64,000 nt of DNA from Lasiodiplodia sp. COLG20 (lineage: Eukaryota > Ascomycota > Dothideomycetes > Botryosphaeriales > Botryosphaeriaceae): the NCBI GenBank assembly GCA_009801085.1, contig VNWV01000003.1, positions 806,001 to 870,000 of the forward strand, read 5' to 3'. Every line of letters begins with the position of its first letter. Positions within the stretch are counted from its first letter, which is position 1. Positions 1-59,271 of this stretch are shown one piece after another. The notes below the pieces were generated by a model. That model made no database searches, was not told the DNA's origin, and saw only the letters and a program-made list of their open reading frames with translations. The translations under genes were made by a program, and so were the position numbers.

Positions 1-3000
1 GGAACAGCACAAACCATGTGGCGAGCAGGTTGGCAATGGAGCCCACCGACGCGGCTGCGGTCTTGAAGAGCTGGTCAAGTTGGTTGTTGCGGGGAATGAG
101 CAGAAGTGTGATCGAGACAAGGAAGAGCTTGTGGAGCTGGACGTATACACGCTCGTTGAAGTTTGTGAGGAGGAGAATCGTGGTAGCGAACGTTCCAAAG
201 ACAGCAAACAGGGAGTAGATATCCCAAGAGCTCCGACGAAATCGTGTCCAACCCAACCCGACAATCCGAACAGTGATGTTGGCGATGTAGATGAGGGTGA
301 GAATCAGGAACACGAAGTCTCGGGTGCGTCCCCACTGCCATGGTTCTGGGTAGTATTCCAGGCAAAGAAGAAGCAGGTGAAGGATGAGGATAAAGGTGAT
401 AAATCTCTGCCATCGACCGGTCTTCTTTACCGCGCGGCGATAGCACCATTCTTCCCATGTCTCTCGCTTCTTCGTCGACGATGGTCTCTTCGAGGGTGAA
501 ATCTGCCTGAGGAGCTTGCGCAATTCGAGCCATGAACGTTGGTCTGTCGTCAGATACGCAACCCCAGTCTGTTCAGTGTAGTTACGCATGAAGACGGACA
601 CGAACAGCGTCAACACGAAGACTGCACCGAGCAAGTTGAAGACGACGAAGTATACCGCATTTCCTTGAGCGGCAAAATCCTCAGGCTGCCGAAACACGCC
701 GGTGATCGCCTGCGCGGAATACATGACATCAATCCAACCTTCTTGGGAGACAATCTGGAACAGAATGAAGAGGGAATTTCCAAAGTTGTCGAAGTCGTAG
801 TAGGGGTTTGCGGCCTGCCGAGGTGCTAAGACGTCCCAGTTAAATGGCGAGCTGAGATACTCTCCAACGCAATCATCAAGATTCACAATATTCGAATCTC
901 CATCATTGCACGTGTACATACGGCCGTTGAAGAGGTTGAGTCCGTAGATGGCAAATGGGATAAGGAAGCTCAGGGAGACGAAAGCCGCCGACATGACCTT
1001 CCAACCGCCTCGAACAATGACGTGATGGAAAGTATTCCGAGCACTGTCACTGACGTTAAGCAACCTGAGAGCTCTGAGAGCTTTGAAAGCACCGACAGCT
1101 CGCGACACGTCTCCTTCGTTAAGCAGAAGGGTAGCAATGTTGATCCACAGCGTGATCAACACGATACCGTCGATGAAGCCCCAGGAGCTTCGGAAGTAGG
1201 CATTCGGCGTCCAGAAGAAACCGTCGGCGATGACTTTGATGAGCGCTTCGACCGTGAAGAGGAGAGCGAAACCCAAATCCGTGTACACGAACCAGTTGTA
1301 GACGCTGTAGCCATGTGTCTCGAAATACTCCTTTTGGTAGACCGGAGTGGTGATGCAAGCAAGAAGCACCATGGCAACAATCGCCGCGTAGATGAACGCT
1401 GAGAATGCGTACCAGATAGGAATCGAAGGCGTCACACCTTCGATACGGTCGTCACCACGTCCTGGTCCAACAATGCGTTGGCAAACCCTCCTGATGGGGT
1501 TGTGCGGCTTGAACATGAACAGTGAGACGTTGTACGAAGGATGCTTTTGCAGGTATTCTCTTTGCGCCTTCTTCCTGCGTTCGGTAGCTGACACGACCTC
1601 CTGTGCCATCGTCCGGGGGTCCAAATCTTCGTACGCTTTGGAGAATTCAAGCCGAGAGTAGAAAGGATTCGGTTCGCGGTGCCATACTCTGCGGACGAAA
1701 TGATCCCATAGCCTTGTCAGAACACCCACCTTCACTACGCCGGTTGCGCCGTTGTGTCGTGTGTCATGGTGGTGAGTGTCTGTGCCGGCGAGCAGGGGTT
1801 GTTCAGGCTCGTCAAGGAAATCCCGGACCACAGCATCCTTCAGCAACATTTCGGTGGCAGCAGTTCCATAGTCAAGGGGGTCCCTTTTCCTCCCAGCGGT
1901 CACTTTGAAGATGGTCGACAGTGCGAGATTGCCAGCCGTGGAACCTCCGAGCTCTTTCTGATGCAGGAAGGCCTTGACCTGCTGAAGCCGCTTTTCATCT
2001 TCTGACACATCAAAGTTCTCCTGAATAACAGCAATGAACATGTTCAAGACGATGAAGTTGGACAAGATGTACCAGATGATCAAGAAAGCGGCTCCGATCC
2101 AGGCGGTATTATAGCCGACTTCGAATTTCTGAACGGTGAAGAGAACATCCGTCCAGTTCTCGCTAGAGAGCAATTGATACATCCCAAGAAAAGAGTTGAA
2201 TAGAGAGGAAAACGTGACTCGAATTGCTTCGCCGTCGTCCTCTTCAGGTAGCTCGCCGCGGAAAATTTGAGCAGCAAAAAGAGCCGCCAAAAATGTCAGG
2301 AGGAACACGAACAGGATCAGATTCAGAAGACCGTAGACGTTGCCCAGGACGGTCATGATGAGTTCGCGGGTCAAAGAGACTGCCAGAACCACGCGATAGA
2401 AGCGAATGATCTGGAAGACAGTCATCCAGGCGTAGACACGCTCTTTGTTATTAATTGGGGGGAACTGCATGATGGTGGTGATGATTGCGAGAAAGAGATC
2501 CAGGAGATTTCTCCGGCGGCGATGAAAATGTCTCCAGTCTGCGACAAAGCGCCAGATGATTTCGAAGAGGAGGAACCCCGTCACGACGGTTTCCGTGTTA
2601 TTGATGAAGCGCTCGCGTCCCTCACTCATCTCGTGGCTCCGTAGAGCCTGAACAATGAGGTCGAAAACGATGAGTAGAACCCAAAAGGCTCTGGTTTTGA
2701 GATATACCCGGAGCATGGCGGGCTTGCGCCGTTTAGGCTCGACCTCTTCTTGTTTTTCATCCGGACCTTGCGCGACTTCTTGAGCCGTGAAAGCACTGGT
2801 CTTGCTCTCGTCTCTGATGACTTGGAACGACGAAGTGATCACAGCGATGAGCAAGTTGAGTAGCCACAGCGCCAAGATAACAATGCCAAAGGCAAAGTAG
2901 AGACAGGCGGCCAGATAGTCGCTGTCCGACAAATTGTACATGAGGTCGGAGAACGTATTGGAGGTCATGACAACAAAGACCAGTTCTAAAGACTGGAAAA

Positions 3001-5071
3001 TGTTATCATAGCTGACGGTGCCGTTGAACTGGTTTTCGCCTTCGATGCACTCCGCAGGATAGGGACAGAGAAAGCCTTTATGATAGTCCGACCCTTCAAG
3101 CCCGTTGAGACTGATCCATGGCATTGCGGTCCCGTTTTTAGTAAGATAGCCTCCGCAATATTGTTCGGTAGTGTAGTCTTCTTGTTCACCCGCTGGATCT
3201 TTCCAGACGCACGTTCGCCTGAGACTGGATTTGAAGCTCTGGACTCCGATGATGGCAAACAACAACCAGAAGAAACCCATGAGGAAACCGACGTTGACGA
3301 GTAGTGGTGCAGCTCTTTTCAAACTTCGCAGAATGACCGTTGTACCGCTAGTGAGACCCAGAAGACGAAGAATACGCAAGCAACTAAGCATGCGGAAGAC
3401 GTAGGCGTGGTTGTGCTCCTCGACACCGAACACACCAATGACGAAGCTAATCCAAAACGAGACAACGGCGACAAAGTCGAGTCGATTGAAAGAGTGACGC
3501 AAGAACGCTCGATGAGCGAGTCGAACTCTCTGCTGTTGCCGGGCATTCGCAGGGTCATCGACGTCCATTTGGTAGGTTGTGAAAGAGCGAAAGAGCACGG
3601 GCTGTTCCGGTGGAAGCGTCGTATCCGTTTTCTTAACCGAGGGTTGGCGTTGAGGCCCGGCAAACAGCTTTTTGCCCTTCTCTATCATAGCTTGCCGGAC
3701 GCCGATTTGACGGTTGATCGTACTGTACTCAACTGGGTTGATGATAAAGCCCGACACAATTATGCGTATTATAACCTCGATGGTGTAAATTACGAAAAGG
3801 GCCAATAGGAAATAGTCTATCCAGGTAGTACCCCAGTGACTTGACCGGGGATGCGTAAACACGCTGCGAGCCGAATCTATGGTGAGCAAAATGGTCTGCA
3901 TAATGATACAAAGAAGGAGAATGGGCTCGGTAGCGGGGTGTGTTAGAACATCGCAAAGCTTCATCCTAATGGGACTGTCCGGTGGAAAGATCCCTAAAGA
4001 TTTGCCTCTCAAAGGGTTTGCTTGGTATTTCCAGTTGAAATGACGCCGGTGCGTAGGCGACGGAAGCTTCTCCAACGGCGATCCAGGTGATATCGGGGAG
4101 CGCGGGGAGCGAGGAGACGGAGGCGGGCCATCGTTCCCGTACGCATCTGCTGAGGGCCACTCATCCTCCTCCAACTGTTGCTCTCCTTGCTTTTTCTGTG
4201 AAGACTTGCGGCGGATGGCTCGTTCAATAAGCTCAGGTTCGTTACTGATATTGACGACACGCTGAGAAATATTCCTCATCATAGTTCCAGCCCGCCGGAG
4301 AGGAGATTCTATTGCTGAAGGAGAGAGCGACCTTGTGCGGCCGCCTGAACCTGACCGTCCAAGAGTCTGAGTCGACAAGCGAAGACCGGCTTCGGCTTGG
4401 GCGAGATCATCTCCAAGTCGCATTTTCCCCGGAGAAGCCGAAGCTCGCTCTGGAGTCAGAAATTGTACGCTCTGGAAGCTAGAACGGCCGGTTTGCTCCA
4501 CAGGGGTCCTGGGTTCTGCGCCGGGCGAGGCAGGTGTAAGATGGCGAGTGCTGCTACTGGCTGCCGCGTCCGGGTCCGCAGACTTAAAGTAACCGGTGCT
4601 CTCATCTTCTGATATACGGCTGTCGTACGGCGTGCCATCGCTGGGGTGTAACCAGACGGGCGGGCTGCGAGGATTTCCAGGCGATACGACTGAAGGCTGG
4701 TCCCGGCGAGACGAGTCGCCTTCGAATGACAGACCTGCGAAACCAATGGCGTTCTGAAACGCCCCCACGTCTCCCACAGGGCTGATCGGCGAGGACGCGG
4801 GGCCACGGCCACTGTTATTTAGCCCTTGTGTTGACAGGTGGAGTGGCGACGGTCGACCAGCATCCCGCGGGGGACTGGATTCACTGAGCGGCGCATACCT
4901 GGCGTTTCGCGAGTCCCGGCCTCGTAACAAGCTCCTCCCACGGTCACTGAGGGTGCGGCGATGCGGGGATTCGGGGTTGTCGGTGTCAGGGGGCCGGTTG
5001 AGATCTTGCAGTGGTATCGACTGCGGCGTCGATTCGTCGCGATAGCGTTGGTTATTGTTGTGATCGGCCAT
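1..5071 (-). CDS. CCH1: Voltage-gated calcium channel alpha subunit Cch1, 5' part (runs off the window)
   Basis: This is the pore subunit of the fungal high-affinity Ca2+ influx channel of the plasma membrane, which works with Mid1. One open frame runs from ATG at 5071 to the left edge, 1690 codons with no stop and no intron. Residues 1-370 are polar and Ser/Pro-rich (cytosolic). Four-repeat channel architecture follows: repeat I S1 near residue 372, S4 with RMLSCLRILRL, pore near 700; repeat II pore near 970; repeat III pore near 1445; repeat IV S1 to about S5 at the truncated end. Filter regions read SNTFSDLM (I), SSENWTDVL (II) and SQEGWIDVM (III), so repeat I has Asn where animal channels have Glu. 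The repeat IV pore and the C-tail lie outside the window. Start choice: first ATG of the long frame, preceded by a stop-rich leader. The gene is divergent from the PHD gene. Confidence 0.95.
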   Translation of the reverse strand, partial: MADHNNNQRYRDESTPQSIPLQDLNRPPDTDNPESPHRRTLSDRGRSLLRGRDSRNARYAPLSESSPPRDAGRPSPLHLSTQGLNNSGRGPASSPISPVGDVGAFQNAIGFAGLSFEGDSSRRDQPSVVSPGNPRSPPVWLHPSDGTPYDSRISEDESTGYFKSADPDAAASSSTRHLTPASPGAEPRTPVEQTGRSSFQSVQFLTPERASASPGKMRLGDDLAQAEAGLRLSTQTLGRSGSGGRTRSLSPSAIESPLRRAGTMMRNISQRVVNISNEPELIERAIRRKSSQKKQGEQQLEEDEWPSADAYGNDGPPPSPRSPRSPISPGSPLEKLPSPTHRRHFNWKYQANPLRGKSLGIFPPDSPIRMKLCDVLTHPATEPILLLCIIMQTILLTIDSARSVFTHPRSSHWGTTWIDYFLLALFVIYTIEVIIRIIVSGFIINPVEYSTINRQIGVRQAMIEKGKKLFAGPQRQPSVKKTDTTLPPEQPVLFRSFTTYQMDVDDPANARQQQRVRLAHRAFLRHSFNRLDFVAVVSFWISFVIGVFGVEEHNHAYVFRMLSCLRILRLLGLTSGTTVILRSLKRAAPLLVNVGFLMGFFWLLFAIIGVQSFKSSLRRTCVWKDPAGEQEDYTTEQYCGGYLTKNGTAMPWISLNGLEGSDYHKGFLCPYPAECIEGENQFNGTVSYDNIFQSLELVFVVMTSNTFSDLMYNLSDSDYLAACLYFAFGIVILALWLLNLLIAVITSSFQVIRDESKTSAFTAQEVAQGPDEKQEEVEPKRRKPAMLRVYLKTRAFWVLLIVFDLIVQALRSHEMSEGRERFINNTETVVTGFLLFEIIWRFVADWRHFHRRRRNLLDLFLAIITTIMQFPPINNKERVYAWMTVFQIIRFYRVVLAVSLTRELIMTVLGNVYGLLNLILFVFLLTFLAALFAAQIFRGELPEEDDGEAIRVTFSSLFNSFLGMYQLLSSENWTDVLFTVQKFEVGYNTAWIGAAFLIIWYILSNFIVLNMFIAVIQENFDVSEDEKRLQQVKAFLHQKELGGSTAGNLALSTIFKVTAGRKRDPLDYGTAATEMLLKDAVVRDFLDEPEQPLLAGTDTHHHDTRHNGATGVVKVGVLTRLWDHFVRRVWHREPNPFYSRLEFSKAYEDLDPRTMAQEVVSATERRKKAQREYLQKHPSYNVSLFMFKPHNPIRRVCQRIVGPGRGDDRIEGVTPSIPIWYAFSAFIYAAIVAMVLLACITTPVYQKEYFETHGYSVYNWFVYTDLGFALLFTVEALIKVIADGFFWTPNAYFRSSWGFIDGIVLITLWINIATLLLNEGDVSRAVGAFKALRALRLLNVSDSARNTFHHVIVRGGWKVMSAAFVSLSFLIPFAIYGLNLFNGRMYTCNDGDSNIVNLDDCVGEYLSSPFNWDVLAPRQAANPYYDFDNFGNSLFILFQIVSQEGWIDVMYSAQAITGVFRQPEDFAAQGNAVYFVVFNLLGAVFVLTLFVSVFMRNYTEQTGVAYLTTDQRSWLELRKLLRQISPSKRPSSTKKRETWEEWCYRRAVKKTGRWQRFITFILILHLLLLCLEYYPEPWQWGRTRDFVFLILTLIYIANITVRIVGLGWTRFRRSSWDIYSLFAVFGTFATTILLLTNFNERVYVQLHKLFLVSITLLLIPRNNQLDQLFKTAAASVGSIANLLATWFVLF

Positions 5072-6610
5072 GGTAACGAGCGACACGTCCCTGAGTGACT
5101 ATGCGCACCAATGCGTCATCGGGACAGCGGGCGGTAGAGGGCGGCGGGAGCTGGTTGGGCGGGCGGCGGAGTTGGTATGCGATAATCTGGGGTAAACAGC
5201 ACTGCGGGCTTCACAGATCCGGGTGATCTGTGCGCCGCAGCGTGGTGTTGCGGTCGAACGGGGGGGCTTGGCGGCGCACGACGGGGGCTCGAGGCGACGG
5301 CGCAGAAGACGAGAGCGCGTGAAGACGGCGGGAGTGGTGTTGGTTGAGGTGTGGGCGAAATGTCTCGTCGCGAAGTACGGCGATCGTAGGCAGCTTGGCG
5401 CGGGATTGTGCATGCAATACGGGCTGGCGTCGGAAGCAGAAGCACGTCTGGCAGCTTCAGGGACTACGCCACGCGGTGGGCCAGAGCGCAGAGGGTACCG
5501 AATATTTTTAGCACCACCGCCACGCGTCGCAAACTCACACCCCCAGCAGCGATTTCGCAAAGTACTTCACGCGTTTGCTCGGCCTCCGCGGGCTGCTGTC
5601 CCTATTTGTGTGCACGTCTACTCCCGGGTCTCGGCATGCTCATCACTCACCAACGGAGGCGTTCCGGCAGGCACGGCATGCTCGGCGCGGCCGACCCCAT
5701 CGCCATCTGAAACGGCAAATGGCGGACCTGGCACATGCAAGGTCGAACTTTACCAAGTCGGGCTGAGGGCCCAAAGCTGCGCGCCTGTTTTGACCGTTTG
5801 ACGTCCAGCCTGCGGCGCAAGAAGGGGCGCGAGACGGAGCATTCCAGCGCCTGATTCCCTCATCTCGCGACGCGCGCTGTGCTGCCGCGCAATCAATGGC
5901 GCGCTGCAGCTGGGGCGGGTGGGTGTTACGAGATAAGGACCAGCCTTAATTGGTAGCTGTCATAGGGCTGACGCGGGATCTTCACGGCTCTCCGGCCCTG
6001 CCCTGCTGCTGCGCAGGTTTTCCCGCGTCGCTGCAGCGACGGCAGCCAGGCTGCAAACAGCCGGGGAGGTGCTCGAGGACTGATTCAAATGTGTTTGCAG
6101 AGGAATTCTGAGACGCGTCGATAGTATAATATGCTTTTCTTTTACTAAGGCCTCGTATAGTGCGGGCAAACGCCTGCCGAGGCACACGAGCAGCCAGCGC
6201 GCAAAAATTAATGGCGCGGTTGGATCGTGTTCAGTTTAATTTACACATCCACAGCTGTGCCTGGGCGAAATGCGCGAGCTGCGAGAGGATGGCAAGGGAT
6301 GGCCCTCGAAATGCGGCCACGACTTTGTGCTGGCGGCGGCCTGCGGAGCGGTGATGCCAAGAGCGCGCGCCGCCCCGAGTGACGCTGGATGTCTGTCGGC
6401 CCTCTCCAATTTCTACAGAGATCAGGTACAACTTCAGAATCACCCGCCAACTCTCACCCCACGCCCCGTCGCGCGTCGTGCACTGAACTGCGCGCTACCC
6501 TCGCTCCGCATCGCGCTACTCGACCGTTTCTCGCTCGAAGCCACGCCAATCGCGCAGTTTGCCCCCTCGCGCCTGCGCAACGCGTCGCCGCACGGCACGC
6601 TTCCGTCACC
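5072..6610. other. Divergent intergenic region between CCH1 and the PHD gene
   Basis: GC-rich 1.5-kb head-to-head spacer that must hold both promoters and 5' leaders. Several frames are open here (for example 5223-5801 plus), but their translations are Arg/Pro/Ala-rich compositional noise without a domain. An AT-rich patch around 6119-6132 is the only TATA-like stretch I see. No RNA gene recognised. Confidence 0.6.
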
Positions 6611-9495
6611 ATGCCTGCCAGGAAGCGCGGTCGTCAAGAAGTCGAGCAGGAGGAACAACCGCGCAAACAGGAGCCCACAAAGCTCGAGAAGCTGCGCAAC
6701 ACCTGGGAGTTCGCGAGCCTTGTGCAATACATCTACATCTTTGGTTCCGTGGTTAAGATCGACGAGGACATCGACGTCGACGTGAGCACTTCCCCGCGTC
6801 CATCGGCCGCCTGCACCTGGTGCACCAGCATGCTGGATCAATCTAACTCGGCGCAGGAACTCGAGGCAGAATGCCTAAAGCCCACACCCTCTGAAAAGCT
6901 TGCGCAAATCGGCCTAGCTCTACTCAAATACGTGTCGTCACACAAGGGACTAACGTGAGAGCTCCTACACGCGCATTAAATGGTCGCCTGCTGACTTTGA
7001 CCAGTTTGGAGATATTTGATGAGTATGCGCGCCGCCAGTACGTCGCCAAGGCGCCTCAGCGCAACCCCTTCGGAGTCGATGAAGAGCCCAAAAAGTTCAA
7101 CGACATGGACACTTTCACCAAAGTTCGCATTCTCCAGCAGCTTTCCACCTGGACCCTCGGCAATGCCGATCGCATACGTGAGAAGATGCCGGAGCAGAAG
7201 GACATTGACCAGACGAGCTGGGTAAGCGGTATTGCCTACCGGCATCCTTGGTCTCTGCTAACGTCCACCAGCGCGTCGAAGCGTTTGGATGGGATAAGGA
7301 GGACCGCACTTACTTTGTTCTTGATGACGATCGCCTATACCGTCGCACCGACCCGCCCTTGCCCGCAGCCCCGCCGCAAAAGTCCAAGCCGAAATCTAAA
7401 GCGAAGCCTAAGAAAACCAAGGGTACCCGAGCCAGCAAACGAAGGAGACTTTCCACGTCACCTTCAGAAAGTGATGCAGAACAGGAGGAAGATGGCGCCC
7501 AGGATGCTTCTGCGCCGGAGGAGGATACATTTGGCGGTATGACATGGGAGTGCGTTGCCGTCACGCTGGAAGACTACACCACTTTTGTGGATTCCATCCG
7601 CAAGAGCAGGGATCCAAACGAGAAAGAGCTCGTGAAGCGTCTGCAGGCCGATGTCATTCCCATTATCGAAAAGAGGGCTGAGCAACAGCGACAGAAGGCC
7701 CTGAGGAAGCAAAGGGAGCTGGAGAACCTTGAGAAGCTGGCGAATGCAAAGCGCTCCAGCAGAATCGCAGGCCGTTTGGAGAAGCAAAAGGAACAGGAGG
7801 CTGCTGTTGAAGCTGAACGCAAGCGTGTGTCTGACCTTGAAATGGCCAAGAAGGAGCAAGAGAAGCAGAAGCAGATGGAGGAGGTGCGTCCATCATCCGA
7901 GCACCCGCTGAAACGGTTTACTGACACCCTGAAGGCACGACAATCACGCATGATGACCCGCGAGCAGCGCTTGAAAGAGCGTGAAGTGAAACGCATACTT
8001 CACGAGGAGGAGCTAAAGAAGCTGCAGGAAAATAGCGAAAAGGCAGAAAACAACGAAATGCGGATGTCCGAACGCCACCTCAAAGCCGAGATGGAAAGGC
8101 GTCAAAAGGAGCTGGAGCAGATGGCCCAGGAAGAGGAAAACTGGATTTTCGATTGTGCCGTCTGTGGTGTTCATGGTGAGAACTTGGTACGGCATCCGAC
8201 ACTCGCGTTGTTTGGTTCGGCAGCTGACTTTGTGGCAGGATGATGGCTCGCACAGTATCGCATGCGAGAAATGCAATGTCTGGCAACACAGTGCGTGCCA
8301 TGGGATTGCTAAGGCAACAGCAGAGAGGGATGACTTCCACTTCGTCTGCTCAGATTGCAAGCAAAGGGCAGAAGACGCTGCAAGACCCAAGCTACCACCC
8401 CTTAAGTTCAAGGTTGGTGCTTCGCCTAAGCCGGACAGCTCTGCATCGTCGTTGGCGGCTGCACCTCCGCCAGCTCAGACTCAACCTTCCGGCACCGTGC
8501 CTCTTCCCGAGCAGCCGTTGCAGCCAGCACGGGCAGCACGGCCCCCGCAAACAGCCCCACTGCACCCACCGCCGGCAAATGGTATCCTGAATGGTCCAAG
8601 CCTATCGCCTCATGGCCAAACCTCTGGTCCACCCGGAATGATTCATGCGGTATCCAGTTATGGCTCCGCACACAGCACGCCCTCACACGCTCCACCAGCG
8701 CCGGTGCCATCATTATCAGCCGCAAATGCACCGTCCATTCCGCCACCACGTTTCATGGCCAGTGGCCAAAGTGGGCACCACGTTATGGCAGGTTCTCCTA
8801 ACTGGCACCACTCACATCCATCCCAGAATCCACCTCACGGGCAGTCAAATGGATACCCCTCGAATCCATCCGCCAACTCATCCCCGAGTCGGCCCTTGAC
8901 GTATAATCCGGCACCGAACAGCCCCAGTCAGCAACGTTCGCCTCCGTCGGGCTATGGAGCTCCATCACCGTCGAAGCCGAGCCCGGCTACGATTCAACAG
9001 CGTCCCATGTCTTCGGGATACGGCGCCCCGTCGCCATCAAAGCCTGCCCCCGCGTCTTCACCATACCAGACCAACGGCTACCCTACGACAGCCCCTTTCA
9101 CTAGCCCCGGTGCATCCTTCCCACCAGCACCAATCCAGCGTCCAGCATTTTCACCGGTCAAACAAGCCTCTTCCCCTCCTCAACCACACTCTTCCCCTTT
9201 CGTAGAGAACAACTCCCGCCTTTTGCCCGAGCCTTCAGCCGGCATCTCGCCGGAGAAGCATGATAGCGCACCGCCTACAGCCCAAGGCCTGTCTGAAGCC
9301 CCGAAGCTTCCCCCCGTCGCCCCGCTGGCGCCCAGCGCCAACCCTCCCATATTGACCCCGCCTAGCAAGAAAGCTCCAGAGGGCTCGCAGGCGGAGCAAA
9401 ATGAACAAGCCGCATCCTCGGCTACTGTTCCGCAAGCTGCGTCTGTCGGCCAAGCAGGCTTAGGTAGCGGGCCTAAGTCTTCGAATGGCCAGTGA
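6611..9495 (+). CDS. DDT/WHIM and PHD-finger chromatin-remodelling-type protein
   Basis: Nuclear protein with the layout of the RSF1/CECR2-like remodeller accessory family. Five exons: 6611-6781, 6857-6954, 7005-7221, 7272-8186, 8239-9495 (885 aa); all phases fit. A DDT-like helical domain lies near residues 25-90 (WEFASLVQYIYIFG). A WHIM-type segment follows at about 90-185 (FGWDKEDRTYFVLDDDRLYRR). A long Lys/Glu-rich coiled coil contains the KRSSRIAGR motif seen in RSF1-like proteins. A PHD finger sits near 460-515, with zinc ligands starting at CAVC and continuing CEKC, HSAC and CSDC. The last intron (8187-8238) falls inside the PHD finger; a GTACGG donor is the only one I found that keeps phase. 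About 390 C-terminal residues are Pro/Ser/Gln-rich and disordered. It probably binds histone tails. Specific complex membership is inference. Confidence 0.9.
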
Positions 9496-35638: not shown

Positions 35639-36013
35639 TGATGATTAATAAAAGTTGTTTTGGTTTTTGCTATTTTTTCTTTTCTGCTCTTTTTGGTTTA
35701 TCTCTCTCCTACTTGGCTTTGAAGGACTGGTCTCCTATAGGGAAAGCAATATCAATGAGGATCGTATCTCGTTTTTATCACTTGATACTTTGCGTGATGA
35801 CCGCAAGTGAGTGACGATATGTTTTTCACGAAAATCATGGACAAAAATTGATTGATAGATATGGGTGACGACTAAAAGGTGTGCTGAGTCATTAGCCGCA
35901 CACAGAAAAACACCCTACATCCAAAGACCGGAGTTCTTTTCCCTTGCAGGTTTGCTCTACAAAACATCAAGCGTCCACGTTTCTAAGTGAAGCGCCAAAC
36001 GGCAAAAAAGATG
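35639..36013. other. Intergenic region, 3' flank of secreted protein 1
   Basis: AT-richer than the gene. No coding signal. It ends in the tRNA-Ser 3' flank. Confidence 0.55.
36004..36009 (-). terminator. Pol III terminator of tRNA-Ser
   Basis: Six consecutive T on the minus strand, starting 5 bases after the tRNA 3' end. Confidence 0.85.
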
Positions 36014-36094
36014 CGACGCCGGCAAGATTCGAACTTGCGCTCCCGAAGGAAACAGATTTCTAGTCTGTCGCGTTAACCACTCCGCCACAGCGCC
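36014..36094 (-). tRNA. tRNA-Ser(AGA)
   Basis: An 81-nt cloverleaf on the minus strand. The 7-bp acceptor stem pairs GGCGCUG with CGGCGUC (including G-U pairs); discriminator G. The D-arm has GAGUGGUUAA. The anticodon stem ACAGA/UCUGU encloses loop CUAGAAA with anticodon AGA, which reads UCU. It has the long variable arm typical of serine tRNAs, and T-arm GCAAG/CUUGC with loop UUCGAAU. No intron. It ends in a T6 run. Confidence 0.97.
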
Positions 36095-49182: not shown

Positions 49183-51775
49183 CTAAGCCAAGACGAGGTC
49201 CTCGAATTTAGGCTGCAAGCGTGCCCATTGCGTAAGCAACACCGAGCCGAGTCCGATTCGAGTTGCAATACCACGCTCGTCTCTCCGAATCGCCAACACG
49301 TTGACAACTGGCGAAGGTAGGAGGGGCCTGCCGTCACAGTCATGCACAGTCATGTCGGTACTCATAAGCTTCCGTTTTTCTTTCTCGTCGAAGCCCACCT
49401 CTTCATGGGCGAAGATATCATCCGCGAACCTTTCAGTCCGGGGCGAGTCAGGGATGTTGTTGCAAGCCAAAGTTTTGTCATAGTTGAAAATTTGACGGAT
49501 TGTATGGCGGACTTCACGATATGCGCCCCTCGTCGTCTGTTATCTGTTAGTTAGCTACTGGTAGAATATGTGTTCTACGCTGCATTCCGTGGATCATCTT
49601 GCGCACCTTGTTTAGGATTTCTTCAGCTTCCCGAGGTTTTAGAAGCCCGACAGATAAAGCGATCAACTCCAACGGGGTATAAGCTGTTGGCGGTTTAAAT
49701 TCTTCATCGAGTTCGACTTGTCCGATGATGAATGTGTTTGGATCACACACGTGAAAGCGGCTCCACTGAGCGCCATAGCGATCATTGAATGCCTTGAAAC
49801 AGCCGCTTCCAACCATGGCTCTGACCGCCAAAGAGCTGGGAACAGACTTCAAATATTTGAGAAGATGTGGGTCTCCTTCAAGCCGAGTGGACTGATGATC
49901 TTGGTATCGGGATCCGTACATTTCTGCCCAAAAGTCCGAGTAGGATGGCCACCGCTTGCTCAAGAGCTTTTGTAACGATTTGAACGTCTGTGGTTGTTTA
50001 AGTTCCTCTGGGATTGTGCGCTCGAAAAGTCCAAGAGACCATGCTGCAGCGAGGAATACTTGAGGGGAATAGCGGCGGCGGATATTGGGGTCCGCGTCAT
50101 TATTAAGGATCCAGCCATGAGATGAGCCTGGGGCGGAAATTGACTGCATCCCAGCTCCTGCATGCCAGTACCTCGTATGTGTAAGTGCTCCGATAAAGGC
50201 TCGGTAATAGCGCGTTTCTCCCTTTGACCGAACCCATGACCAGCTTGGTAAGCCAATGTGTCCGTTCAAGTCACGCTTTGTTGATAGATAATCGAGAGAT
50301 GGGTCGAGGTATGTGTAAGAGAGTAACGCCTCATCAAAGTCGATGAGTGGGAGGCCGCAGTGAAATTGATCCAGTCCGCCATAGATCTTCTTGAAGATGC
50401 CCATGAAGGCGTTGTAGATGTCTGAATCTTTGCTAAGATTTCTGGTGTTGTATTCATTGATGACAGCCTTGTAATTGGCAAACGCACATTCGTCATCGAA
50501 GGCAGGGAAATCGTATGGCGACACATCATCTGTGGGGCCCTCGGTAAGAAGTCCTCGTGAACATTGAAATGAGACCTGGAATTGATTGAAGAGTAGCTTC
50601 CGTCCGGCCAACAGATACTCTTGACAAGTCCATCCGCGGCTCCACCACTTCTCCGGGCCCTGCAGTGGCCTTGGAAGCTCTGGTGCCAGGATAATTCCAG
50701 CAAAGTTGCATAATTCCTGGTTGAACGACCTTGGGGTGTTTTCAAGACCTACAAGTCCTGCTTCAGCATCATCGCCGTGGAGTGCGCATATCGTAAGGTA
50801 GGCTGAAGAGTATATGGAGTCCATAGCCTGGATCTGAGCCATCTTGTGGGGGTCATTTTCATCTTGGACGATGCAGAGTCGGTCAACCCAGAGGTATTGG
50901 ACGCCCAGCTTGGTACACACAGCCATGGCATCCTTGATGGTTTTGGTGAGAGGCATTGAATTGACGCCACTCCACCCGTCAGGGACAAGAACGGACTCAT
51001 GAGACTGTTCTTGTCCTGGGGTTTGCTGCCCCCAGACATAGCTCAGAGCAATGTATCGGCAGTTTTGGGGAGCTTCAACAACGCATGCTGCTTTGATATC
51101 CACGACCTTAAATCCTTGAGGCAGAACAGTTTTCTGTTCCATGTGGTCATGACTTTCGTCACACTTTAAGATCCACCGACGGATTTTCTCCCACTGCACC
51201 AACCGGGTTGCCCCGGAATTGGTCCAATTTGGCGTAGAAATACTTTGGTATCCGGACGTCACTCCTTTCTCACCAAAATATATCGTTCTGGCTCGGCCTC
51301 GGCTTACCCATGGTTTCACCCATTGAACCTGGAATGAGTTGCGGAAAGCGAATCCCCCGAACATCAACCTCACGCTGAAATAATTATCGTATGATGGTTG
51401 AAAATCCGGCTCGATTCCGTCTTCCATAACCTTCAGGTGTAGGGTTTGCGAAAAGATCCGACATAGATCGCAGTTTGGACGTTGTAGCAGCTCTTTCGGG
51501 AAGGAGTAATCGATTTCGAAACCGCCCTTCATGAATTCAGGAACGCATAGGAGTATGTGACGCAGCCGTAAATGCCGGCAACGGATGCAGATCTCCCCTT
51601 CGTACTCCAGCAGATCGCACTTTGCGCAATCTTGCGTGAAAATGAATTCATATTCTTCATTGGAGAGTGCCGACGTCTTGTAAAAACGGCGGACAGACTT
51701 CGGAGGGGGAAAGTATTCGCAGCCTGTTCGGCGACACCGCCGAAGGTCGTGCGCGGAATGATCATCCGATTCCAT
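49183..51775 (-). CDS. HET-domain (heterokaryon incompatibility) protein
   Basis: Exon 1 is 51775-49607 and exon 2 is 49536-49183, joined over a 70-base phase-0 intron (GTGCGC donor, GCTAAC branch, TAACAG acceptor); 840 aa. Reading exon 1 to its first stop would give a 742-aa protein lacking the family's C-terminal block. Exon 2 restores it: VVNVLAIRRDERGIATRIG and ending WARLQPKFEDLVLA, like other HET proteins. The HET domain starts at ALSYVWG (about residue 243), then KLGVQYLWVDRLCIVQDE and MDSIYSSAYLTICALHGDD. The N-terminus has CX2CX9CX2C (Cys50, 53, 63, 66) and Cys102/105, possibly zinc-binding. HET proteins trigger cell death on non-self fusion in filamentous fungi; the partner here is unknown. 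Confidence 0.92.
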
Positions 51776-52285
51776 GTCGTTTGTGGAAAGTGAACTTCAA
51801 ATTGGTTGGAGGAGATGGAAATATCATCAAAGTGGGGGTGCGAAATGTAGTTATCGGCAGCCGGTTAAATAGGGCACGCGTAAACCGCTGAGGTCAGCAA
51901 AGATATTTGGCCCCCAAAACTACGCTCATGATGCCGCGCTACTGAGTATCACCTGAGCTTACAGTGAACAGCAAATATTATTAATGGTAACGAATTTCTA
52001 TCCCCAAAGCCCTTGAAGTATTGGTTGTTTTGTGGAACTACCAAATGAACAAGTGTTACTACTCTTTGCATTTTGAAAGCTCGTTCAAAAACACTTCAGT
52101 GCATGTATTATTAGGATATTTGACGAACTCGATCGAATCTACTACCTGGATGCTTCTAAAAAAAAAAAAAAAAAACGCATGCTTGCACTAGTGAACCCTT
52201 TTACAACCTGACAGCATCGAGCTTTACATAGTGGCTGAAATATTTTAGCCTTCTTGAGCATAGGATATCCTCCCCGTTACCACCG
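51776..52285. other. Intergenic region with A18 tract
   Basis: HET promoter and DUF3176 3' flank. It includes an A18 run at 52158-52175. No gene. Confidence 0.6.
52158..52175 (+). repeat. Poly(A) tract, 18 bases
   Basis: Homopolymer about 110 bases beyond the DUF3176 stop codon. No flanking element recognised. Confidence 0.9.
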
Positions 52286-56190: not shown

Positions 56191-56453
56191 GGCATGATCC
56201 ACCTAAAAATGAAAAGCATGAAATCTTAAACACCTCCGACCCTACTGCTCACTCCGTCTAGCTCAACACAAAATGAAGCGGTCATGAAACGGTAGCAGAA
56301 CTGGTCTGAAGTCTTTATTGTTCTAAACACGCCGCTTCTCCCACGACTGAGCCTGATCTTCAACCTCCCGAGACTTCAAAGTTCAATATCCCGGCAGATC
56401 AAGGTCAATATATCATTGCATCCAGCCACCCTGCCCTCCATCAGCAAGGAAGA

Positions 56454-56599
56454 GGCCCAGTGGGTAAGTAATCGATTCTCTCCCTCTTCAACACCACGGC
56501 CATAACTGATACCCAATCCAGTCTAGTAGTTACGATTCTCACTTCGGGAGCATTCTCTTGGACTGTGAGAGGTCCCGCGTTCGACTCGCGGCTGGGCCC
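56454..56599 (+). tRNA. tRNA-Pro(CGG) with two introns, one of mRNA (GT-AG) type in the D-arm
   Basis: The downstream part is clearly a tRNA: anticodon stem CTCAC/GTGAG with anticodon CGG at 56545-56547, T-arm CCGCG/CGCGG with loop TTCGACT, acceptor 3' strand CTGGGCC (56592-56598) and T5 at 56609-56613. A 15-base intron (56549-56563) sits at the canonical position after base 37. The matching 5' acceptor strand GGCCCAG is not adjacent: it lies at 56454-56460. Between base 10 and base 11 is a 58-base segment (56464-56521) with donor GTAAGTA, branch CTGAT and acceptor CCAG. Removing both segments leaves exactly 73 nt with all four stems paired. The D-loop has AG where GG is usual. It could instead be a dead gene with an insertion. 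Confidence 0.75.
56464..56521 (+). other. Spliceosomal-type intron inside the tRNA-Pro gene (candidate)
   Basis: 58 bases, GT-AG, the same length class as introns of neighbouring protein genes (52-76 bases). Donor GTAAGTA, pyrimidine-rich middle, CTRAY-type branch CTGAT at 56506-56510, acceptor CCAG. The boundary is ambiguous by one base because G stands on both sides. It splits the Pol III A box (tRNA positions 8-19). Confidence 0.7.
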
Positions 56600-56608
56600 C
56601 ACCCGTTC

Positions 56609-56613
56609 TTTTT
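56609..56613 (+). terminator. Pol III terminator of tRNA-Pro
   Basis: T5, nine bases after the predicted tRNA 3' end, which supports Pol III transcription of this gene. Confidence 0.75.
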
Positions 56614-57116: not shown

Positions 57117-59271
57117 ATGTTTTTCCAGGAAGACAACAAGCTCATCTTCCGCTACGATGCCGAGACCCTCTGGATCGAGCCCTGGGGACCCAACGCCCTG
57201 CGCGTCCGCGCCACCAAGAACCACCAGATGCCCACAGAGAATTGGGCCCTGGACGTCCCGCCCCCAGCTCTCCCAGCCCAGCCAACCATCTCCATCTCCG
57301 GCGACGGCGACGGCGCGACCATCACCAACGGCAAAATCCAAGCGTCCCTCACCCCGCGCGGCAAGCTCACCATCCGCAACGCCCACACCGGCACCATCCT
57401 GCTGGAAGAGTACTCGCGCAACCGCAAAGACGACACGGACCCAAAATGCAGCGCGCTCGAGATCGAGGCGCGCGAATTCCAGCCCATCCCGGGCAGCGAC
57501 GCCTTCCACCTGACCGCGCGCTTCGAGTCGCAGGACGCGCGGGAGCGCATCTACGGCATGGGCCAGTACCAGCAGGCGCTGCTCAATCTCAAGGGCGCGG
57601 ACCTCGAGCTCGCGCACCGCAACTCGCAGGCCAGCGTGCCCTTCGCGCTGTCCAGTCGCGGCTACGGATTGCTGTGGAACAACCCGGGCGTCGGGCGCGC
57701 CGTGTTCGGCACCAACGTTGCCAGCTTCGAGGCGCTGTCGACGAAGGCGCTGGATTACCGGGTCGTGGCGGGCGACGCGCCGCGCGAGATGGAGCGCGCG
57801 TACGCGGAGGTGACGGGGAAGGTGCCGATGATGCCCGAGTACGGGCTGGGGTTCTGGCAGTGCAAGTTGCGGTACCAGACGCAGGAGGAATTGCTCGAGG
57901 TGGCGCGCGAGTACAGGCGCAGGGAGCTGCCGATCGATTTGATCGTGGTCGACTTTTTCCACTGGCCGAAGCAGGGGGAGTGGAGGTTCGATCCGACGTA
58001 CTGGCCTGATCCGGACGCGATGGTCCGGGAGCTGAAGGAGCTGAAGATCGAGCTGATGGTGTCGATTTGGCCGACGGTCGACAAGCTGTCGGAGAATTAC
58101 GAGGAGATGGTCGAGCATGGCTACCTGATCCGGACGGACCGCGGTATCAGGACTGCCATGGACTTCATGGGGGATACGGTTCATGCGGACTTTACCAACC
58201 CTGGCGCTCGGGAGTACGTGTGGAAGAAAGTGAAGCAGAACTACTGGGACAAGGGCATTCGCGTTTACTGGATTGACGAGGCTGAGCCTGGTAAGTCAGC
58301 TCGACGGGGTGAAGGGGACGAAACCCCGTTCACCAACCTGGTGGTGACTCGCGTGCTTTCCACGCATGTCTTTTTCACGGGATACGCACTATTACCACCT
58401 ACCTTTCCCCCTAACTCCGTCAATGCCGAAAACTAACCAAGCCTCAGAATACACCGCCTACGACTTCGACAACTACCGCTACCACCTCGGCCCCAACCTC
58501 CAAATCGGCAACCTCTACCCCCTCCACTACGCCCGCGCCTTCCACGACGGCCAAACCTCCGCGGGGCAAGCATTCGTCGTCAACCTCGCCCGCTGCGCCT
58601 GGGCCTCGTCGCAGAAATACGGCGCCCTCGTCTGGAGCGGCGACATCGCGTCGTCGTGGCCCGTCTTCCGCGCGCAGCTGGCCGCGGGGCTGAACATGGG
58701 CCTCGCGGGCATCCCGTGGTGGACGACGGATATCGGCGGCTTCCACGGGGGCGATCCGACAGACGAGGCTTTCCGCGAGCTCTTCGTGCGCTGGTTCCAG
58801 TGGGGCGCGTTCTGTCCGGTCATGCGGCTGCACGGCGACCGCGAGCCGAGGCAGCCGCGGCACGGGACGACGGGCGGCGCGGAGTGCAGGAGCGGCGCGG
58901 CGAACGAGGTGTGGTCGTATGGAGAGAAGGTGTATGGGATTTGTAGGAAGTGGATGGGGGTTAGGGAGGGGTTGAGGGAGTACACGCGCGCGGTGATGCG
59001 CGAGGCGCACGAGAGGGGCGATCCGGTGATGCGGGCCTGCTTTTACGAGTTTCCGGAGGATAAGAGGGCGTGGGAGGTTGAGGATCAGTATTTGTTCGGG
59101 CACAAGTACCTCGTGGCGCCGGTGCTGTACCCGGGGGCGCAGACGAGGGAGGTGTACTTTCCGAAGGGGGCGACGTGGAAGGCGTTTGAAGGCGAGGCGA
59201 AGTTTGAGGGCGGGACGACGGCTGTGGTGGAGACTCCGATCGAGTCCATGCCGGTGTTTGTGAGGCAGTAG
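57117..59271 (+). CDS. Glycoside hydrolase family 31 (alpha-glucosidase/alpha-xylosidase type)
   Basis: Retaining alpha-glycosidase. Exons 57117-58290 and 58448-59271 with a 157-base intron (GTAAGT to CCTCAG); 665 aa. An N-terminal beta-sandwich (residues 1-220) precedes the TIM barrel. The nucleophile is Asp387 in VYWIDEAEP, and the likely acid/base is Asp457 in LVWSGDIASSW. Other GH31 motifs: MPEYGLGFWQCKLRYQTQEE, LPIDLIVVDFFHW, WWTTDIGGFHGG, CPVMRLHGDREP and RACFYEFP. No signal peptide is visible, so it is probably intracellular and resembles YicI/XylS-like enzymes, suggesting use of xylo- or gluco-oligosaccharides after uptake (inference). The start is the first in-frame ATG, with a compact leader. 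Confidence 0.95.

Follow-up and report, generated by a model that had tools for sequence, protein, structure and literature searches.

The tRNA-Pro(CGG) gene in the window, by which we mean the whole stretch of 64,000 nt of DNA analysed here, is interrupted after nucleotide 10 by a 58-nt insert that is very probably a U2-type spliceosomal intron in a functional nuclear tRNA gene, and this gene would, as judged from sequence, belong to a spliceosome-dependent class of tRNA genes spread over the genome. At least 14 nuclear tRNA genes split by GT-AG inserts of 52–60 nt were read, which places the single odd gene of the initial annotation within a much larger group. The 13 others encode Pro(TGG), Ala(TGC) (two genes), Arg(TCT) (two genes), Arg(CCG), initiator Met (four genes) and Phe (three genes), and from their sequences split genes appear to be the sole source of initiator tRNA-Met and tRNA-Phe in this filamentous fungus.

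The acceptor strands, GTAAGT, CTGAT, CCAG, anticodon arm and terminator that had been read in the window gene were all found at the positions given for them, and the exons summed to 73 nt with seven of seven acceptor pairs, confirming the proposed 73-nt product with a perfect acceptor stem (Table 1). Spliced sequences were judged by ARAGORN together with a custom tRNA scorer. When the window gene was spliced in silico, ARAGORN recognized a normal tRNA-Pro(cgg) having the same canonical 15-base anticodon intron as had been predicted, while the unspliced gene was returned as tRNA-Glu(ttc), having an incorrect intron of 54 nt. The tRNA-Pro(CGG) was missed in the window both by default ARAGORN and by Rfam at gathering score, each giving only an uninterrupted tRNA-Ser(AGA) gene (36013–36094, minus strand). 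The D stem turned out not to be entirely normal, as it had been called, since it held three of four pairs, the same as in the normal Pro(TGG) gene of this genome, and the usually invariant G18 was replaced by A. The split Pro(TGG) paralogue keeps G18, and the window copy, with A at this position, may be a weak gene. With regards to its surroundings, the gene is adjoined by a GH31 gene (57117–59268, plus strand) with one 157-nt intron, encoding a protein 96% identical to its Lasiodiplodia theobromae homologue and 85% identical to that of Diplodia seriata, which makes an origin within the Botryosphaeriaceae likely, and the window also holds a HET-domain gene (49550–51796, minus strand).

Table 1. 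Anatomy of the tRNA-Pro(CGG) locus in the window, and position of the GT-AG insert in the split tRNA genes read.
Feature	Position	Strand	Basis or remark
5' leader, common to the other split Pro gene	56420..56453	+	BLASTN vs C1 copy L002: 160/182 aligned columns alike, beginning 34 nt upstream of exon 1 and reaching the acceptor end
Exon 1: 5' acceptor strand GGCCCAG (56454-56460) and nt 8-10 TGG (56461-56463)	56454..56463	+	7/7 pairs with 56592-56598
58-nt GT-AG (mRNA-type) intron	56464..56521	+	same site in L002, 54/60 alignment columns identical
5' splice site GTAAGT	56464-56469	+	sequence at coordinates
Branch motif CTGAT, branch A 56509	56506-56510	+	sequence at coordinates
3' splice site CAG (CCAG ends 56521)	56519-56521	+	sequence at coordinates
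Exon 2: remaining D arm and 5' anticodon arm; anticodon CGG 56545-56547	56522..56548	+	sequence, ARAGORN
Canonical anticodon-loop intron (37/38), 15 nt	56549..56563	+	ARAGORN, spliced sequence
Exon 3: anticodon 3' strand, variable loop, T arm with B box, acceptor 3' strand CTGGGCC (56592-56598), C73 (56599)	56564..56599	+	sequence, ARAGORN, stem pairing
TTTTT (T5), Pol III terminator-like, 10 nt past acceptor stem	56609-56613	+	T-run survey of split and uninterrupted genes
Pro(CGG), Pro(TGG)	insert after nt 10		
Ala(TGC), one gene	insert after mature nt 9		
Ala(TGC), second gene	insert after nt 54		inside T loop
Arg(TCT), two genes	inserts after nt 11 and after nt 13		
Arg(CCG)	insert after nt 25		
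Initiator Met, four genes	insert after nt 23		introns of 57, 59, 54 and 55 nt
Phe	insert after nt 30		anticodon stem, plus anticodon intron

The borders of the inserts were assessed by a deletion test, in which every deletion of 30–110 nt in each gene was scored as a tRNA while splice sites were ignored. Deleting the GT-AG segment reached the top score in all 14 genes (2142–6825 deletions each) and no deletion scored strictly higher; its product was the sole top in seven of them, with ties in the other seven, most often Phe. For the window gene, where 4375 deletions were scored, likewise none came strictly above the GT-AG deletion and one other product tied with it. The resulting scores of 58–65 equalled those of the genome's uninterrupted tRNAs (58–65), compared with –94 to 46 for the undeleted split genes, and where an uninterrupted gene carries a long anticodon intron (Gly, His, Ser and Ile-like), the best GT-AG alternative scored at most 47. 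ARAGORN gave the expected isotype for 13 of the 14 spliced sequences, with Arg(CCG) returned as tRNA-???, as opposed to a correct full-length tRNA for none of the 14 when unspliced.

The signals within the inserts were those of mRNA-type introns. The 5' splice sites were GTAAGT in six genes, GTAAGC in four, GTTAGT in three and GTATGT in one, the branch motifs were CTAAC in nine, CTGAT in two and TTAAC, CTGAC and CTAAT in one each, and the 3' splice sites were CAG in eight and TAG in six. Within a scan range that allowed 6–40 nt, the branch A was located 10–12 nt from the intron end in every one of the 14 genes. Mapping by homologues gave six introns for three of the window's protein genes; these introns had similar ends, and in four of them CTAAC or CTGAC lay within 22 nt of the 3' end. 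A coding-potential search for such mRNA introns had given mostly implausible candidates, and homology mapping was used in its place. The suggestion that the insert has the size of local spliceosomal introns was borne out by one of these six, being 56 nt compared with 52–60 nt for the tRNA inserts, but not by the others, at 157, 161, 163, 500 and 587 nt. When the intron middles of the eight groups were compared in search of an introner family, their similarity did not exceed that of shuffled sequences (best 2.5, against 3.0 at the 95% level of the shuffles).

The genome searched comprised 43.5 Mb in 88 contigs, and a search of it with the Pro(CGG) locus gave three places, these being the locus itself, a split tRNA-Pro(TGG) gene on C1 (L002) and an uninterrupted tRNA-Pro(TGG) gene. 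The two split Pro genes carry inserts of 58 and 60 nt with intron middles 86% alike, their anticodon introns were alike at 9 of 15 nt, and their distant flanks were unalignable at a background identity of 52–54% (54% far upstream). Since the two inserts as a whole are 90% alike, intron drift is not visible in this pair. The mature parts had four differences, comprising the anticodon, G18A and the compensated pair 30–40 in the anticodon stem. Exons and splice signals have accordingly been kept in both genes despite the unalignable distant flanks, which together with the compensated pair makes it unlikely that the window gene was newly killed, as had been one option of the initial annotation. 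The first of its three options, a spliceosome-dependent gene, was supported by the occurrence of this insert at the corresponding site of the second Pro gene, as well as by the initiator-Met, Phe, Arg and Ala inserts elsewhere. With a T-arm pattern and mature-Pro searches, Pro(CGG) was found in a single copy, Pro(TGG) once split and once normal, and Pro(AGG) in two copies; as for the possibility of intact Pro(CGG) copies elsewhere, the T-arm search and the best-scoring candidates of the mature-sequence search of the genome gave none beyond the split copy of the window.

In the complete set of split genes read, the inserts occupy eight positions (after mature nt 9, 10, 11, 13, 23, 25, 30 and 54), and nine of the 14 genes have two introns, i.e. 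the GT-AG insert and an anticodon intron (both Pro, both Ala, Arg(TCT)_b, Arg(CCG) and the three Phe). These genes were retrieved through several searches. The T-arm pattern GGTTCRANYCC occurred at 257 sites in the genome compared with 297 for the reversed control, so that most of the sites are not tRNAs; the sites with positions listed were GGTTCGANTCC (95), GGTTCAANTCC (71) and part of 91 others, with 30 GGTTCAANTCC sites left unread. Searched with the Rfam tRNA family, the genome gave 63 listed matches, including weak or partial ones. Genes with other T-arm sequences entered only via the locus, Rfam and mature-sequence queries, and the split Arg(CCG) and Phe genes were recognized by a scan demanding GT-AG. 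With this coverage, the 14 split genes represent a lower bound, and 14 versus 95 is no unbiased fraction. In the course of the survey an anticodon-loop intron was also seen in most of the listed uninterrupted nuclear tRNA sequences, even those for Gly, Asp, Glu and Val. Among other loci, L045 (C45:1062118-1062142, plus strand) had a tRNA-Ala-like 3' part with an inverted repeat replacing the 5' half, and L254 (C12:3365190, plus strand) and L258 (C18:151570, minus strand) resembled tRNA genes that are degenerate or unusual and contain long inserts.

A genome query with the mature initiator tRNA gave, among its best-scoring candidates, four genes, each on a contig of its own and each interrupted at nt 23, and no whole initiator-Met gene. 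Using mature tRNA-Phe, the best-scoring candidates were six genes matching at 1–30 and 38–73 with gaps of 91–100 nt, as expected from the presence of both introns, again with no whole gene among them; three of these six were read and the other three were classified as split by exon spacing only. The Ala(TGC) query found only the two split genes. With Arg(TCT) one split gene was found, while the second came from the genome-wide Rfam search. A tRNA-like family with nine read copies (L086, L100, L106, L202, L205, L211, L224, L227 and L231) was also encountered, having a strongly conserved 44–46 nt anticodon-loop insert, conserved flanks and an ambiguous anticodon register, and being called Ile(tat), Arg(tct) or Lys(ttt) by ARAGORN. 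As six of its copies are uninterrupted Arg(TCT) according to ARAGORN, we do not claim that the Arg(TCT) isoacceptor is always split, and in view of this family and of the normal Pro(TGG) gene, only initiator Met and Phe look strictly dependent on split genes. If these two tRNAs indeed come only from split genes, translation would depend directly on the spliceosome.

It could be argued that the split genes have died or are decaying, with a GT-AG-like sequence having landed in tRNA genes and no splicing taking place. Other eukaryotic tRNA genes with insertions in the D or T arm are regarded as probable pseudogenes (PMC4090602), and the A at G18 of the window copy would agree with decay. We nonetheless find this explanation quite improbable, considering the lack of any whole initiator-Met or Phe gene among the best-scoring query candidates and the state of the split genes themselves. 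After splicing, 290 of 294 stem pairs were formed, compared with 1500 of 1533 in 73 distinct uninterrupted sequences, and the six sites at which the two initiator isoforms differ make up three compensated pairs. Initiator genes of one isoform had identical mature parts (71/71) beside intron middles that were 61–67% alike, and between isoforms the intron middles were 54–58% alike; the flanks were 43–52% alike. The mature Phe parts were likewise identical (72/72) with intron middles 55–61% alike. With mature parts either identical or differing mostly in compensated pairs next to such drifted intron middles and flanks, exons and splice signals were thus kept while the remainder drifted. Runs of at least four T were furthermore found within 45 nt of 11 of the 14 split genes and 93 of 95 uninterrupted ones, against 10.9% of random window stretches; the three Phe genes, having no T run within 45 nt, showed T6–T7 at 45–47 nt. 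Left out of the terminator, start-word and stem counts were seven C47 loci (taken as mitochondrial, from their content), L145–L198, genes with scores below 58 and Phe genes read as Thr.

A different proposal, altering the transcription step only, is that the genes are also read by polymerase II and that only the long Pol II transcript is spliced, whereupon it would be trimmed to the tRNA. Pol II transcripts are the usual substrates of spliceosomes, the A box is interrupted by the insert in 5 of the 14 genes (both Pro genes, including the window gene for which this had been noted from the start, one Ala and both Arg(TCT)), and there was no clear upstream start motif: TCAA was present upstream of exon 1 in 7 of 14 split compared with 62 of 95 uninterrupted genes, and TCAAC in 1 of 14 compared with 37 of 95, with the last 40 nt of the introns holding such words equally often. 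We regard this proposal as conceivable but unlikely, as the A box was whole in the remaining 9 of 14 genes, a T run followed closely in 11 of the 14, and U6 offers a precedent for a Pol III transcript being spliced. In the Pro genes, moreover, 10 of 11 A-box positions matched at the end of exon 1 and also at the 3' splice site, and from these sequences such matches on both sides of the insert may have aided the survival of the Pro genes upon insertion. That the inserts would instead be excised by the tRNA-splicing endonuclease, acting on bulge-helix-bulge folds of the archaeal, nucleomorph and Cyanidioschyzon type, with GT-AG being incidental, must be considered highly improbable. Insertions at odd positions that are processed in this manner are known from algae and archaea (PMC4090602), and the three Phe genes can form a 4-bp central helix, but the standard motif (two 3-nt bulges flanking a 4-bp helix at the borders, scored as central 4, inner 3 and outer 3 pairs) was complete in none of the 14 genes in a simple ungapped test without positive control, initiator Met has only one of four central pairs, and the motif needs no GT...CTNAY...AG with a fixed spacing of 10–12 nt. 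The probability that a tRNA half came to lie by chance beside a matching acceptor strand and splice-like words is negligible; nothing beyond the small size of each motif speaks for it, and it is contradicted by the paralogues, with the same arrangement seen in 14 genes. A splice-and-score scan of both window strands (128 kb) furthermore gave no locus besides tRNA-Pro(CGG), and 256 kb of shuffled window sequence gave nothing at a score of 50 or more.

If the inserts are spliceosomal introns, as we believe, Pol III would transcribe the whole gene, from a presumed start upstream of exon 1 up to the T run seen beyond the acceptor stem. The spliceosome would recognize the GTAAGT, GTAAGC, GTATGT or GTTAGT, the CTNAY-type branch site and the YAG that the genes display, and would take out the 52–60 nt in between. 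The tRNA would thereafter fold and have its ends trimmed, and the anticodon intron, where present, would be cut by the tRNA-splicing endonuclease, with spliceosomal removal presumably preceding that cut. Taking the split genes together, we consider it likely that the spliceosome is an obligatory tRNA-maturation machine here, that initiator Met and Phe exist only as intron-split genes, and that every translation initiation would hence depend on mRNA-type splicing of Pol III transcripts, with at least eight separate entries of introns into tRNA genes having occurred, most simply through reverse splicing and copying back into the genome.

Introns of tRNA and mRNA are taught as separate, the former being handled by a protein endonuclease and a ligase and the latter by the spliceosome, and tRNA genes in need of the spliceosome would cross that line. 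Should our interpretation be true, the start of translation is tied to splicing and introns can repeatedly invade the most conserved of RNAs. Split genes of this kind would also explain tRNAs that are absent from annotations, in line with the failure of ARAGORN on all 14 unspliced genes, and they would offer a natural setting in which to examine how Pol III transcripts are dealt with by the spliceosome.

Comparing these inserts with other known introns, group I and group II introns occur in bacterial and organellar tRNA genes and share the use of non-canonical tRNA sites, but they are far longer and structured, as opposed to the 52–60 nt found here; in the window, no group I or group II intron matched at Rfam gathering score, where only tRNA-Ser did. 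The canonical tRNA intron, located at 37/38 and cut by the endonuclease, likewise interrupts nuclear tRNA genes, but the present inserts have GT-AG borders and a branch site and are found at eight other positions, rather than one nucleotide 3' of the anticodon. According to the tRNAscan-SE 2.0 paper (PMC8450103), a tRNA gene of a eukaryote has no more than one intron, whereas 9 of the 14 split genes here have two. Non-canonical tRNA introns of archaea, nucleomorphs and Cyanidioschyzon are removed through endonuclease motifs (PMC4090602); these bulge-helix-bulge introns, including those of Cyanidioschyzon merolae, resemble the present inserts in using D-arm, anticodon-stem and T-arm sites and in sometimes being accompanied by a second intron, but differ in that our inserts have spliceosomal signals and no complete bulge-helix-bulge at their borders, as far as the simple test described above can tell. 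The same source gives 3–24 nt for inserts in the Guillardia nucleomorph, compared with 52–60 nt here (PMC4090602). According to a 2026 review on non-canonical splicing, tRNA splicing does without the spliceosome (PMC13149111), and tRNA genes with spliceosomal introns were not encountered in the literature searched, which excluded bioRxiv preprints and most subscription journals. First scans for relatives in genome-contig and viral-contig collections gave 0 matches each and later ones 30 and 24, respectively; among these 54 matched contig stretches there was no eukaryotic-type initiator tRNA, and those that are tRNAs look prokaryotic.

The closest counterpart is found in U6 snRNA. The genome's own U6 gene (L049, C78:1858460-1858559, minus strand) matched the family over 1–105 and has no intron. 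Apart from fission yeast, mRNA-type U6 introns are present in some other fungi, and U6 of some fungi was the precedent in a Pol III gene to which the initial annotation had pointed. In Schizosaccharomyces pombe, U6 is a Pol III transcript carrying an mRNA-type intron, and this intron is thought to come from reverse splicing (PMC10484740). Both systems have, within a Pol III gene for a non-coding RNA, a short GT-AG intron that contains a branch site and that in S. pombe U6 is removed by the spliceosome (PMC10484740); the difference is that the host RNA here is tRNA, the inserts being spread over many genes and eight positions. Among tRNA introns, the proposed spliceosomal intron is outside all described classes, and its mechanism has one precedent, namely U6.
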